Below are positions 8,310 to 30,781 of a stretch of 36,469 nt of DNA, one piece after another; the stretch's first letter is position 1, and each line of letters opens with the position of its first letter. Origin of the DNA: Spirobacillus cienkowskii (lineage in GTDB: Bacteria; Bdellovibrionota_B; Oligoflexia; Silvanigrellales; Silvanigrellaceae); NCBI GenBank assembly GCA_003339605.1, contig QOVW01000005.1:1-36469 (forward strand), written 5' to 3'. Made by a program: the position numbers and the translations under genes. A model generated the notes under the pieces. That model was not told the origin of the DNA. It was given only the letters and a program-made list of their open reading frames with translations, and did not search any database.

Positions 8310-11261
8310 ATGCCAGCTTCCCAAGATCTAAAACAATTTGTTCGCTCAGAGAAAGTACATGAGCGATATTTAGCGATAGAAAACCTTGCAAAAATACCAC
8401 AATCTTGGCAAGGAAATTTATTGACTTGGCAAATTATGGCTCTAATACCAACTAGCGCCGAAAAGTCTAAACTTGCTGCATCGCTTAAAATACCAAATAT
8501 ACCAAATAGTGAATGGGCAATAATATCGTATTTACTGCATAAAGAAACAGATGAAAGCGTTATATGTAACTGTATTTTATCTATAGCTCATTCAAAAAAA
8601 ACATTTTTTTCTCCAATAATTTTAAAATTTCTCGATGGAAATAAAAAAGTTTCAAATCAAATATTATATGCAATTTTAACTTATGTTGAAGAAACTGGAG
8701 ATGACAACTTTAAAGAAAGTCTAGAAAAATACTTTCACCAAAATTTACCAAATTATATTCTAGCAAAAGGCTTTAATGCTTTTATTAAGCTTGGTCAAAT
8801 TACAGAAAAAATTAAAAATATTGCTTTTTCGATTGTTAAAAATCATAATTACAAAGATATAGAAAATACAGCTTTAATTTCTACTTTTTTATATTTAGGA
8901 TTTGCAGCAAATGCTGCTGATATCATAAATATAAAATCATTTAAATACAAATTAAAGAACAACGAAATTCAAAGATTATTTGAAATAATAATTTCAGAAA
9001 TAAATAAATATGAAGAATTAAATTTTAATACCAAAGCAGCAGAATTATTTTTTGTTACAGCAGCTCATCAAGAAACTCCAAATTTTTTAGGATATGCCTG
9101 CTTTAATCAGTCAGTTCTAAATATCTCACTCGAAAAGATATTACGCAATAATTTAATTGATAAAGAAAATATTACAGGAACTATTTTAAAACTAAAAAAT
9201 AAAGAACTTATTAATATTTTAGTAAACGATACTTTAATCGGAATTGCATCAATTGAAAGCAATAAAAATAAGTCTCTTGTTAAATACTGGGCAGAAAATG
9301 CACCTTTAAAAAACAGCGCGTTTTTAAAATCTGTACGCAATCCAAATCATTTTTTATCCTGGCATGAAAACTTAAATGATTTAACATATTATTTTTTAAA
9401 TTTTGATATTTTATTTAATAATTATTTAAATACATGGCAAAATTTATTTTTAATGAATTTTGATAAAAAAATATTGATTTCTCAAATTTTATCATTAGGA
9501 AGCGAAGCTGCGCAAAATTTACAACCTGAAAAACTAATTGTTTTAGAAAATATTATTTTAAAAAATATTAAAGCTTATGTTGAACACTTGAAAAATGATA
9601 ATCAAGAATCTTATGATACATTTATTGAACAAATATATGCTACAACTATAGGATTTTCGTTTTCTGCTCGTTTTATGGATGAATTAAACAAAGAAATTCC
9701 ATTTTCTGGTGTAAGTTGGGTTTTTACAGCGATAGCGTTAAGCGCTCCTAAACTTAACATACATACTATTAGTCACTCAATTCAAACAGAATTAGAAACT
9801 ATTAGACAAACTTTACTTCAAGGCAATATAGAAAAAGAAGAATACATACTTGAAGTTACTTCTCGATTTCAATCAATACTTGTTGGCTCAGATCGCTTCA
9901 AAATTCCTTTACAACAAAAAACTCTTTTAACATTAAAAGAGATTTCTAGCTTAATTCAAAATATGCTGGATAAGTCTAATAATTTTTACGAAATAGATGC
10001 TGAATTTTCTGATTGGAGTGGCAATATTTTATTTGATAGACCAGTATTACGATGGGGCGCAATTCTTCAAGTGTGCTTAAATACTAATCTTACAACAGAA
10101 GAAAAAGAATATTATGAAAAATATCTCCGAGAAGGTTTGAGAGTTGCTCCACATGTAGAAAAAAGATGGATTGTACGCGCACTCGTAAAATTGGATACAG
10201 AAGAAGCAATTAAAGCTGTACTGTACCAAGGATTACAACATATAGATGCAGATTTCGTTGAGCATACAATTAATGAATTATTACATTCCCATCAACCACG
10301 AGCACACCAAGCACTCATTCGCTCAGTATCAAAGAATAACATCAGCAACTTGCTAAAAATTAAAATTATAAAAGAAATTTCTTTAATAAATCATGAAGAA
10401 ATCCTAAAAGAACTCAAAAATCTACAATTAATGCGATTTCCAGAAGAAGTAGATTTTGCTATTCAAGAAGCAATTTATAAAATTTCTGCAAAAATTCCTG
10501 AAGTTTTAAATTATACAGACACCTCTGAAATGCGCATATCCTCTCAAAACATCGATCTCACTATTAAAGCACTAATACCACATTCTGACGCTCTTTCTAT
10601 TGACTCTAAAAGTGCTTTAAGAACAGCGGAGATGATTTTAATTCAATCTAAAGGCTGGGGAAATGAAGCTGTTGACTTAAGCCCAATCGTAAACATGCAT
10701 TGTAAGGCAGTTGAATTAACTATGAGAGAAACTTTTGAAGTTCATACTGATGCCATCATTCGGTATGGAGCATTATCGAAAAGACTTGACTGCATTGGCT
10801 ATGCAAAAGGTATAGTTGAAAAAATGACATTGTTTGAAGATTATATTTCTAATCTTCAAATCATCAGAACAATTCCTTATTTTAGTAAATTTAAATTAAG
10901 AAAAATGCTTCGAGCAATTTGCTTATATAGGCCCGGTAAACGGTTTACATTAGATGGTCCCAAGGCATTTGCACTTCTGTTGCTTGTCATTGCAAGAAAG
11001 CAATGCGAATTTAATTTGAATAATCTCATTCATCTTAATTTTGAATCTGACACAGAACTATTTGAATTTATTAAATTAGTCCATTCTTTACAGGATAGTC
11101 GAAATCGCGCGGTTCATGAAGGACTCACATGGGAAGCACGCGACGAAATAGACGCAATGAGGAAGCAAGCCTATAAAATTATTTCGACATGCCTTACAAT
11201 AAGTAAAAGCTTAAAAGTTCAAGAAGATAACCAGGGAGACTCTCCCATGGAGAGTTGTTAA
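8310..11261 (+). CDS. Large helical-repeat protein with C-terminal HEPN-like domain
   Basis: No gene name recognised. The 983-residue product is almost wholly helical, with HEAT-like repeats clearest at about 590-750 (for example EKRWIVRALVKLDTEEAIKAV). Residues about 770-970 form a separate helical block: a family-typical helix SPIVNMHCKAVELTMRETF, and near the end SRNRAVHEG, which contains R931-N932-x3-H936, the Rx4H signature of HEPN domains. HEPN domains are often RNases but can also be non-catalytic. No signal peptide or membrane segment is seen, so it is probably cytosolic. A CAGGAG ribosome-binding site precedes the ATG. Flagellin starts 3 bases after the stop codon, with its promoter inside this gene. 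A role in flagellin expression, stress response or defence is possible but unproven. Confidence 0.7.
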   Translation: MPASQDLKQFVRSEKVHERYLAIENLAKIPQSWQGNLLTWQIMALIPTSAEKSKLAASLKIPNIPNSEWAIISYLLHKETDESVICNCILSIAHSKKTFFSPIILKFLDGNKKVSNQILYAILTYVEETGDDNFKESLEKYFHQNLPNYILAKGFNAFIKLGQITEKIKNIAFSIVKNHNYKDIENTALISTFLYLGFAANAADIINIKSFKYKLKNNEIQRLFEIIISEINKYEELNFNTKAAELFFVTAAHQETPNFLGYACFNQSVLNISLEKILRNNLIDKENITGTILKLKNKELINILVNDTLIGIASIESNKNKSLVKYWAENAPLKNSAFLKSVRNPNHFLSWHENLNDLTYYFLNFDILFNNYLNTWQNLFLMNFDKKILISQILSLGSEAAQNLQPEKLIVLENIILKNIKAYVEHLKNDNQESYDTFIEQIYATTIGFSFSARFMDELNKEIPFSGVSWVFTAIALSAPKLNIHTISHSIQTELETIRQTLLQGNIEKEEYILEVTSRFQSILVGSDRFKIPLQQKTLLTLKEISSLIQNMLDKSNNFYEIDAEFSDWSGNILFDRPVLRWGAILQVCLNTNLTTEEKEYYEKYLREGLRVAPHVEKRWIVRALVKLDTEEAIKAVLYQGLQHIDADFVEHTINELLHSHQPRAHQALIRSVSKNNISNLLKIKIIKEISLINHEEILKELKNLQLMRFPEEVDFAIQEAIYKISAKIPEVLNYTDTSEMRISSQNIDLTIKALIPHSDALSIDSKSALRTAEMILIQSKGWGNEAVDLSPIVNMHCKAVELTMRETFEVHTDAIIRYGALSKRLDCIGYAKGIVEKMTLFEDYISNLQIIRTIPYFSKFKLRKMLRAICLYRPGKRFTLDGPKAFALLLLVIARKQCEFNLNNLIHLNFESDTELFEFIKLVHSLQDSRNRAVHEGLTWEARDEIDAMRKQAYKIISTCLTISKSLKVQEDNQGDSPMESC
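11204..11230 (+). promoter_or_regulatory. Sigma-28 (FliA)-type flagellar promoter for flagellin
   Basis: TAAAAGCT (11204-11211), an 11-base spacer, then GAAGATAA (11223-11230), against the known class-III flagellar consensus TAAAGTTT-N11-GCCGATAA. The spacing is exact, the TAAA core is intact and the -10 box matches six of eight positions. It lies within the 3' end of the preceding coding region and would start transcription near 11236, about 29 bases before the flagellin ATG. Confidence 0.7.
11234..11254 (+). promoter_or_regulatory. Mutually exclusive hairpins over the flagellin ribosome-binding site
   Basis: Two short perfect stems share bases. GGGAG (11234-11238) can pair with CTCCC (11242-11246) across a 3-base loop. 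Alternatively CTCTCC (11240-11245) can pair with GGAGAG (11249-11254) across a 3-base loop. The second stem buries the flagellin Shine-Dalgarno sequence GGAGAG. A transcript starting at the sigma-28 promoter (about 11236) would lose part of the first stem, while read-through RNA from the upstream gene keeps it. Translational control is inferred from pairing only. Confidence 0.5.
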
Positions 11262-11264
11262 AAT

Positions 11265-12191
11265 ATGGGATTACGAGTCCAAACAAACATCAGCTCTATT
11301 AATGCTCAAAGGAACTTGTCTGTGTCGACACTGTTACTTGCTAAACATACCGAAAGAGTTTCAAGCGGATATCGTATTAATAGAGCGGCCGACGATGCAG
11401 CTGGACTTGCTATTTCTGAAAAATTACGCTCTCAAATAAGAGGATTAACCCAAGCAAAAAGAAATACTGCAGATGGAATAAGCCTAATTCAAACAGCTGA
11501 AGGAGGCTTAAATGAAATATCTAATATGCTCATTCGTTTAAAAGAGCTTTCGATTCAGGCTGCAAGCGATACCATCGGAGACTTAGAAAGAGGACATATT
11601 CAAAAAGAATTTGAAGCTCTTAAAGACGAGATTGATAGAATTGCTTACTCGACTGAGTTTAACGGAACACGTCTTTTAACTGGAGAAGCTAAAATACCTG
11701 AAATTCTAAAAAAGAATAGCAATCCACCACCACTTGAAGTTCAAGTCGGTGCTTCTTATTATCCAGAGGTGGATGACTTGCGTACAGTTCGCAATCCAAC
11801 CCATATTATCAGAATAAATCTTAATAAAATTAATGCATTAACAGGTGGTCCTGGCTCTTTAAATCTTGGTAGTGTTCCTGATGCCACAGGAACCAGAGTT
11901 GATAAAAAAGTACATGCACAAAGAAGTATCACCCGAATTGACGATGCAATTGATAAAGTCAACGAGTACAGAGCAATTCTTGGATCCATTCAAAATAGAA
12001 TGGAACACACCATCGCAAATACAAGCATTACAATTGAAAACTTACAAGCTGCAAAATCAAGAATTAAGGACTCTGATTATGCCGAAGAAAGCTCTCAAGT
12101 TGTGCAGCAAGGAATATTACAAAAAGCCGGTATTTCTGTACTCTTACAAGCAAATCAAATTCCAGAAATGGCTCTAAAGCTTTTAGGTTGA
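11265..12191 (+). CDS. fliC: Flagellin
   Basis: Major filament subunit, exported by the flagellar type III system. At 308 residues it is a compact flagellin. The N-terminal D0/D1 region shows NTNISSINAQ-like start residues, RVSSGYRINRAADDAAGLAI, and the helix around ERGHIQKEFEALKDEI followed by TEFNGTRLL. The C-terminal D0/D1 region shows ENLQAAKSRIKDSDYA and ends in LLQANQIPEMALKLLG. The variable central domain is short (about 150-215) and includes a proline run. The gene starts 3 bases after the HEPN-like gene, with its Shine-Dalgarno GGAGAG inside that gene and a sigma-28-like promoter just upstream. No other flagellar gene is in the window, so this is an isolated flagellin locus and may be one of several copies. 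Confidence 0.96.
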   Translation: MGLRVQTNISSINAQRNLSVSTLLLAKHTERVSSGYRINRAADDAAGLAISEKLRSQIRGLTQAKRNTADGISLIQTAEGGLNEISNMLIRLKELSIQAASDTIGDLERGHIQKEFEALKDEIDRIAYSTEFNGTRLLTGEAKIPEILKKNSNPPPLEVQVGASYYPEVDDLRTVRNPTHIIRINLNKINALTGGPGSLNLGSVPDATGTRVDKKVHAQRSITRIDDAIDKVNEYRAILGSIQNRMEHTIANTSITIENLQAAKSRIKDSDYAEESSQVVQQGILQKAGISVLLQANQIPEMALKLLG

Positions 12192-29429: not shown

Positions 29430-29801
29430 ATGCAACCGCGCTTAACACCATACACAAAAAAATTAAAGCGAGAAAGACTCGTCTTTTACAGCTTTATTTG
29501 CATTTTGTTAACAGCGTGCACAAGTCCCCCTGCTGTCAGAGGTCCAGCACCTACAGCAATAAACCTACCATTTCTAAGACTTGAACAGGCAGGAGAGTGT
29601 TACTTCATAGATGATTTTATGCCAACTCCAGATAGCTTAGTTAATGGTAAAACTTCTAATTTATATTTGCGTTACTACACTTATTGGAATGCGAATTACA
29701 AATACTGGGCTGACACAGGAATTATGCTTGCTTTTTATAGCAAGGATTTAAGGTGTTGGTCTTTATTCGAAGAGTATTCAATACCAAGAATTCAAAATTA
29801 G
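29430..29801 (+). CDS. Small putative lipoprotein
   Basis: A 123-residue protein with a basic N-region, a hydrophobic core and a lipobox LTAC (Cys about 30), so probably lipidated and exported. The mature part is short and rich in aromatic residues (LYLRYYTYWNANYKYW) with two further cysteines. No family is recognised. GGAGGAAAGG precedes it by a few bases. It lies 53 bases before the receiver-CheX gene on the same strand and may share its transcript. It is divergent from the M3 peptidase gene. Confidence 0.65.
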   Translation: MQPRLTPYTKKLKRERLVFYSFICILLTACTSPPAVRGPAPTAINLPFLRLEQAGECYFIDDFMPTPDSLVNGKTSNLYLRYYTYWNANYKYWADTGIMLAFYSKDLRCWSLFEEYSIPRIQN

Positions 29802-29854
29802 AAAGTATTTATATAGTCACTTTCCAATTAAGTAACAATAACTTAGGACAAAAA

Positions 29855-30781
29855 ATGGCTAAACTATTTATTGCCGAATCATCAAAAAAATCGATTGAAA
29901 ATCTTAGCCGTTTTTTAACAAATGATGGACATGAAGCTTATTTTTTTGATAACTCTAAGCCAATTCAAGAAGTATTGAACGAATCAAAATTTGATTTAGC
30001 AATTATCGATCAAAATTTTAAGGAATTATCTGGCTTTGATTTGGTTAGCCATTTTATAAAAAATCAAAAAAATGCAAACACTCATATTGTTGTTACAACC
30101 TCATCGCCCAATAAAGATGACTTAAATAAATTTAGCGCATTAGGGATAAACCATTTATTTATAAAACCCTATAGGTATAAGTTGCTTTCAGATAAAATTA
30201 AGTACGCTATCAACCCAAATAAAAATGATCATGGCGCTTTTGAGCCAGAAATCTTAAAAATATTTTTAGAATCGACAATCCACATTTTTGATTCTATGGG
30301 CAGAATCTCTATTGTAGCAGGAAGACCCTTTCTCAAATCAGGAAACCAAAGTTTAAGCGAGGTTAGTGCAGTAATTGGCTTATCTAGTCCTCAAATTAAA
30401 GGATCAATGTCTATAAATGTCACAAAAAAAATACTCATAGCGTGTATTTATCGAATGCTTGGACCAGATGCCAAAGCAGACGATACAGCCATTGCCGATA
30501 TCTGCGGCGAGCTATGCAACCAAATTATGGGACGAGCAAAACAAAAGTTTTTAAAGAAAAAAAGCATGTCATTTGAAATTACAGTGCCAACAATTTTAGC
30601 TGACCCAATGCACATACTCGATTACAAGAGCAATTCTCCCGTTCTAGTAATACCTTTTTTATTTGAGAAAATTGCTGGAATATATGTAGAATTTTGTTTA
30701 GAGATAAATGATAGCTATGAGCCTGTAGCTCCAGAGAAACTACAAGTTGTTGTAGAAGAAGGCGAACTTATTCTTTTTTAA
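29855..30781 (+). CDS. Response regulator with C-terminal CheX-type phosphatase domain
   Basis: A 308-residue cytosolic fusion. Residues 1-120 form a receiver domain: acidic pocket Glu8, phosphoacceptor Asp52 in AIIDQNF, Thr81/82 in VVTTSS, and Lys104 in LFIKPY. Residues about 125-300 match the CheX/FliY-type phosphatase fold, with the catalytic ExxN pair Glu219/Asn222 in DICGELCNQIMGRAK. CheX removes phosphate from CheY, so this may be a self-terminating or signal-sink regulator in chemotaxis. The start is ATG 29855 behind AGGAC; an upstream in-frame ATG at 29753 would overlap the lipoprotein gene and lacks receiver-like residues. No kinase or other chemotaxis gene is nearby. Confidence 0.85.
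   Translation: MAKLFIAESSKKSIENLSRFLTNDGHEAYFFDNSKPIQEVLNESKFDLAIIDQNFKELSGFDLVSHFIKNQKNANTHIVVTTSSPNKDDLNKFSALGINHLFIKPYRYKLLSDKIKYAINPNKNDHGAFEPEILKIFLESTIHIFDSMGRISIVAGRPFLKSGNQSLSEVSAVIGLSSPQIKGSMSINVTKKILIACIYRMLGPDAKADDTAIADICGELCNQIMGRAKQKFLKKKSMSFEITVPTILADPMHILDYKSNSPVLVIPFLFEKIAGIYVEFCLEINDSYEPVAPEKLQVVVEEGELILF

Follow-up and report, generated by a model that had tools for sequence, protein, structure and literature searches.

Spirobacillus cienkowskii is a parasite of Daphnia that belongs to the family Silvanigrellaceae and has a complete genome of 2.81 Mb (PMC12321486). On one of its contigs, the gene for a long helical-repeat protein lies immediately upstream of a flagellin gene, and the protein ends in a motif like the RNase signature of HEPN domains. 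The locus therefore raises the question of whether this protein serves flagellin production, defence against phages, or some other role in the cell. We analysed the gene within a window of 36,469 nucleotides (contig QOVW01000005.1, positions 1 to 36,469 of the forward strand) and compared it with related genomes.

The gene and its helical-repeat region

An open reading frame (ORF) at positions 8310..11261 (+ strand) encodes the 983-amino acid protein, and has homologues in relatives. Its stop codon ends at 11261 and the ATG of the next gene begins at 11265, so that three bases separate them. The downstream ORF (11265..12191, + strand) encodes a flagellin of 308 amino acids, which matches both Flagellin_N (PF00669, 2.6e-42) and Flagellin_C (PF00700, 6.3e-23) in Pfam. 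The coordinates given in the first-pass annotation, which described a 983-residue ORF with the sequence RNRAVH at residues 931-936 and flagellin three bases downstream, are thus confirmed. The protein itself gave no match of value in Pfam, NCBIfam, PADLOC or the PDB sequences, and its family, here called HEAT-HEPN, is not recognised by any Pfam, NCBIfam or PADLOC model.

Residues 1-728 (8310..10493, + strand) are predicted by AlphaFold to form a continuous, entirely helical alpha-solenoid, with pLDDT mostly between 80 and 97 in a full-length model whose mean pLDDT is 86.6. The Pfam profile HEAT_2 matches 30 of the 37 members of the family, with a best E-value of 1e-7, and is not matched by the window protein itself. 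When the full model was used as a Foldseek query, the top matches were CAND1, SF3B1, importin-beta and PP2A-A (E about 1e-4, probability 1.0, low TM-scores). The tandem helical pairs of a solenoid, together with a HEAT profile, are the features of HEAT repeats, and the family profile, the model and the HEAT-type Foldseek matches all uphold the long HEAT-like region that had been proposed.

A C-terminal domain with HEPN features

The remainder of the protein is much better conserved than the solenoid. Within the genus, residues 742-975 share 76-81% identity, as against 41-57% for residues 1-500, and among the members of the class that were compared, the corresponding values are about 39-45% and 11-18%. 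We delimit a conserved, HEPN-like domain at residues 742-983 (10533..11258, + strand), whose model in isolation has a pLDDT of 91.8 and a pTM of 0.89.

In HEPN domains, an Rx4-6H motif ends helix 3, with N, D or H following the R; an Ex3[KR] motif lies in helix 2, and there is an insert between helices 2 and 3 (PMC3710099). The RNRAVH sequence (11100..11117, + strand) is of the form Rx4H and is a putative RNase active site. Such motifs are common by chance: shuffled versions of the window protein contain 2.4 Rx4-6H matches each on average, and 29% of shuffles still contain one or more matches if the residue following the R is required to be N, D or H. Frequency alone consequently does not exclude a chance motif, but conservation does, as R931, N932, A934 and H936 are identical in all 45 aligned relatives from the same GTDB phylum. 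Loss of R931 and H936 among homologues had been named in advance as evidence against a HEPN domain, and both residues proved invariant. The protein has two other Rx4-6H matches, at residues 12 and 806, in which the R and H pair is kept in only 3 of 43 and 3 of 45 sequences, respectively.

Other HEPN features are present as well. The predicted helix 2 (residues 791-819; 10680..10766, + strand) carries an Ex3R motif. Its acidic position, E802 (10713-10715, + strand), is E in 41 and D in 3 of the 45 aligned rows, making it acidic in 44, and R806 (10725-10727, + strand) is R in 42. Four short helices in the model separate this helix from the predicted helix 3 (residues 914-937; 11049..11120, + strand), as assigned by DSSP on the models. 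The RNRAVH motif closes helix 3, and is followed by a short loop and the predicted helix 4 (residues 941-974; 11130..11231, + strand; DSSP on the model), within a domain predicted at a pLDDT of about 92. The block also contains a second conserved region, IP[FY]FS[KR]FKLRK...PG[KR]RFTLDG, that is distinct from the active-site motif.

Profile and fold comparisons

Searches with profiles of known HEPN families point the same way, though weakly. When members of the main family were scanned singly against Pfam, the HEPN matches were RiboL-PSP-HEPN (0.035), DUF4145 (0.044, in three members) and Abi_2 (0.24), which are all weak and stand among 14 Pfam matches in total. A paralogous family, described below, scores better against HEPN models: four of its six matched Pfam families are of HEPN type, namely DUF4145 (0.0014), Abi_2 (0.03), RiboL-PSP-HEPN (0.082) and LA2681 (0.13). 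These matches are also weak, and the DUF4145 E-value of 0.0014 is the best for any HEPN profile in either family. A profile search of this sort had been suggested as a check on the first-pass annotation; family members and the paralogue answer it weakly in favour, and the window protein does not match.

The predicted helix layout agrees with that of HEPN domains, and a Foldseek search of the PDB with the C-terminal domain returned no significant HEPN match, with none at E <= 0.001, so that the proposed fold search was significant for neither side. No significant match was found in BFVD, where an RNase LS-like protein, which is of a HEPN type already known, has the highest listed probability (0.54; E 1.3, weak). 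Scores from hhalign against six single HEPN proteins were not separated from those of decoys.

These Foldseek and hhalign outcomes speak for the alternative that the domain is some other helical fold in which RNxxxH is kept for a different reason. The position of the motif, the second motif (Ex3R), the helix layout and the convergence of the weak Pfam matches on HEPN models all argue against this explanation, which we regard as very unlikely. The C-terminal domain is very probably a HEPN domain, an assignment supported by predicted layout, motifs and weak profiles rather than by homology statistics. The first-pass proposal of a HEPN-like end is therefore sustained by the conserved Rx4H and Ex3R motifs, the predicted helices and the profile matches, and is left without a significant PDB match.

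Distribution and descent

Protein searches identified homologues in 43 of 56 relatives, and a profile of the C-terminal domain matched 47 of the 58 genomes examined from the phylum, a count that includes weaker paralogues and a few genomes with the paralogue only. The HEAT-HEPN gene is mostly present in single copy and occurs throughout the class Oligoflexia, and some lineages have lost it. In a tree of the conserved part, 10 host groups are accounted for by 9 changes, which is the minimum possible, whereas shuffles average 29. No match to the family was found in searches of plasmids, phages and viral contigs. A tree at the minimum number of changes and the lack of matches in these mobile-element searches indicate a vertically inherited chromosomal gene. 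A scan of genome contigs for close relatives yielded five loci, all on Silvanigrellaceae contigs that had already been seen or were so labelled. The family is new and unnamed, probably restricted to the lineage, vertically inherited, and usually single-copy in Oligoflexia.

A second family of about 870-960 amino acids (L115-L127 and L079-L081) carries the same C-terminal domain in its last 270 residues, with the motif RN-x-AAH nearly invariant. This paralogous family is found in several families of the class and was not detected in the genus of the window. At L044:6822-9808 and L034:6001-8987, which are on the same contig, the HEAT-HEPN gene appears as two ORFs of 123 and 833 amino acids, so that close to its N-terminus the frame is broken or the assembly is faulty.

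Gene neighbourhoods

At every intact junction in Silvanigrellaceae (11 relatives and the window), flagellin immediately follows the gene on the same strand, at a distance of 2-30 bp. The order of genes in this family is ABC transporter, aldehyde dehydrogenase (in most), HEAT-HEPN, flagellin, PTPS-family gene and queE-like gene, the last label having been read from the sequence with no profile match. The adjacency to flagellin is found only in Silvanigrellaceae and is absent from the other families examined, so the suggested check for adjacency in related genomes is positive within one family and negative in the others. Many loci outside Silvanigrellaceae instead have the order tamB, bamA, a divergent gene for an exported-looking protein, HEAT-HEPN, a fabG-like short-chain dehydrogenase/reductase (SDR) gene and a fabH-like gene.

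The divergent gene encodes about 330 amino acids with an N-terminal hydrophobic stretch (L061:5880-6938, - strand, and equivalents), and is present in 28 of 58 genomes. It adjoins the HEAT-HEPN gene in most loci outside Silvanigrellaceae and has no confident Pfam match. We considered it as an obligate partner and rejected this idea, since neither Silvanigrellaceae nor some of the other genomes that carry the HEAT-HEPN gene have it. At two sites (L138 and L139), the divergent gene and the SDR gene are present, and the roughly 2.5-kb HEAT-HEPN gene that would separate them is missing. In one such genome (G016), about 0.65 kb is left between these two genes, and the residue at L138 could hold remnants.

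The window's flagellin gene is not part of a flagellar cluster. It stands alone among unrelated genes, and is one of nine Flagellin_N matches in its own genome, such that the "flagellar locus" of the first-pass annotation is a misnomer. Elsewhere in the window, positions 29753-30781 encode a response regulator receiver joined to a CheX phosphatase domain. Within the junction, a hairpin (CTCTCC-CAT-GGAGAG, 11236-11255) could pair over the ribosome-binding site of flagellin; it is not kept in relatives and was discarded as a candidate. No conserved RNA structure was seen in the junction among the relatives compared, and a scan of the junction for sigma-28 promoters revealed no site clearly above shuffles.

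Two roles for the gene had been suggested from its position: that it monitors or shapes flagellin production, or that it is a defence gene that landed beside flagellin. For the former, the protein might bind or cut flagellin mRNA, or couple its own translation to that of flagellin, and the short, same-strand spacing in every intact Silvanigrellaceae junction fits this proposal, as does the likely co-transcription of the two genes. However, the adjacency is confined to one family, and presence of the two genes is uncoupled in both directions: G014 and G025 have the HEAT-HEPN gene and neither flagellin nor FliM, while G016 and G054 have flagellin and lack the HEAT-HEPN gene at its usual site, where the divergent gene and the SDR gene are neighbours. 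The co-occurrence and synteny with flagella genes that would identify a component of the flagellar system were not found. The multiple flagellins of the genome, the lack of conserved RNA structure in the junction, and a conserved gene order that extends to the aldehyde dehydrogenase, PTPS-family and queE-like genes also count against regulation of flagellin, which we judge to be highly improbable. Relocation of the gene in a single family is the most plausible origin of the adjacency. In Silvanigrellaceae, the two genes are probably co-transcribed without being functionally bound, and flagellin is probably a neighbour rather than a functional partner.

A defensive role has more general precedents, as HEPN domains are common in abortive infection (Abi), toxin-antitoxin and CRISPR systems, and a solenoid is combined with HEPN in AbiA (PMC11077055) and HEAT repeats with one AbiJ group (PMC3710099). 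In a chromosomal anti-phage system of the Abi kind, the solenoid would sense phage and free a HEPN RNase to cut RNA, and the much faster evolution of the solenoid relative to the HEPN part is what might be seen in a sensor. The distribution speaks against this role. Defence genes of known type are recognised by a match to an established model and by a mobile or patchy distribution, and neither was found here: PADLOC models gave no match at E <= 1, no copies were seen in the plasmids, phages and viral contigs searched, and the gene is near-single-copy across the class, with a tree that follows taxonomy and core genes as neighbours. These observations likewise tell against a defence gene that landed beside flagellin, and we consider a defence function unlikely.

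Possible function

We slightly favour, as an overall explanation, a HEAT-like solenoid joined to a HEPN RNase in an inherited, chromosomal RNA role in Oligoflexia. The protein would most likely be cytoplasmic. Its HEPN part is most likely a metal-independent endoribonuclease, perhaps working as a dimer, with a putative active site formed by R931, N932 and H936 and helped by E802 and R806. This site is proposed from other HEPN proteins, in which the H of the motif and, in tested cases, the R are required for cleavage (PMC3710099). The solenoid may hold the RNA to be cleaved, an RNP, or a partner protein by which cleavage is kept in check, and the role could be chromosomal RNA processing or RNA surveillance.

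Catalysis by the C-terminal domain is more likely than not, and its main rival is a scaffold, in which a non-catalytic HEPN domain serves for dimerisation or RNA binding. AbiA sets a precedent for the rival, as its HEPN motif (RNSNPVSH) is intact and yet the protein showed no RNase activity in vitro, the HEPN domain mediating dimerisation (PMC11077055). Moreover, the second conserved region is apart from the motif, so other constraints act on the C-terminal block. On the other hand, a catalytic site is favoured by the R, N and H, which are invariant in 45 of 45 relatives and kept by almost every paralogue, and HEPN domains that retain the motif are predicted to be RNases (PMC3710099). A scaffold is rather unlikely, and a putative active RNase is the reading we retain.

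We also considered whether the protein stands in for a missing RNase E/G, and rejected this idea. RNase E/G was detected in 49 of 58 genomes, that of the window among them, and hence there is no missing RNase that calls for the HEAT-HEPN protein.

Relation to known systems

The DUF4145, RiboL-PSP-HEPN, Abi_2 and LA2681 families (PMC3710099) share with the HEAT-HEPN family the Rx4H motif with N after the R, its position at the end of a helix, the Ex3R motif and an insert between helices 2 and 3. Profile matches to them from the family and its paralogue are nevertheless all weak, and the HEAT-HEPN family differs in having a class-specific block (IPFFS-KFKLRKMLR-PGKRFTLDG) and a long HEAT-like solenoid. 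Lactococcus AbiA, which consists of a reverse transcriptase, an alpha-solenoid and a C-terminal HEPN domain (PMC11077055), has the same order of solenoid and HEPN. Unlike AbiA, which is plasmid-encoded, acts in phage defence and has a HEPN domain that showed no RNase activity (PMC11077055), the HEAT-HEPN protein is chromosomal and vertically inherited, has a far longer solenoid, and was found without a reverse transcriptase. AbiJ-NTD4 proteins can likewise be fused to HEAT repeats and so unite these with a HEPN domain (PMC3710099); by description, they are set apart by a different N-terminal domain and a defence setting. The eukaryotic proteins Las1, Swt1 and C6orf70 have core RNA roles (PMC3710099), and we infer a likeness in that a HEPN domain serves an inherited cellular role.

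Bacterial HEPN domains have so far come mainly from toxin-antitoxin, abortive infection, restriction-modification and CRISPR systems. The HEAT-HEPN gene looks like a core gene rather than a conflict gene, and the flagellin neighbour on which the original idea was based is uninformative. A usually single-copy, class-wide, inherited HEPN protein with invariant putative catalytic residues would qualify as a candidate for a housekeeping RNase, in a host group with few studied genes. Perhaps, and we suggest this tentatively, a HEAT-scaffolded HEPN RNase that originated among toxin and defence proteins was taken into normal RNA processing, as a bacterial counterpart in kind of Las1 and Swt1.

One observation concerns RNase E/G itself. 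In a second genome of the same species (G057, a single contig of 2,806,830 bases), the gene is matched in two pieces (G057:C1:19184-19994), which abut near profile position 93, whereas it is whole in the window's genome; the split is possibly a sequencing error.
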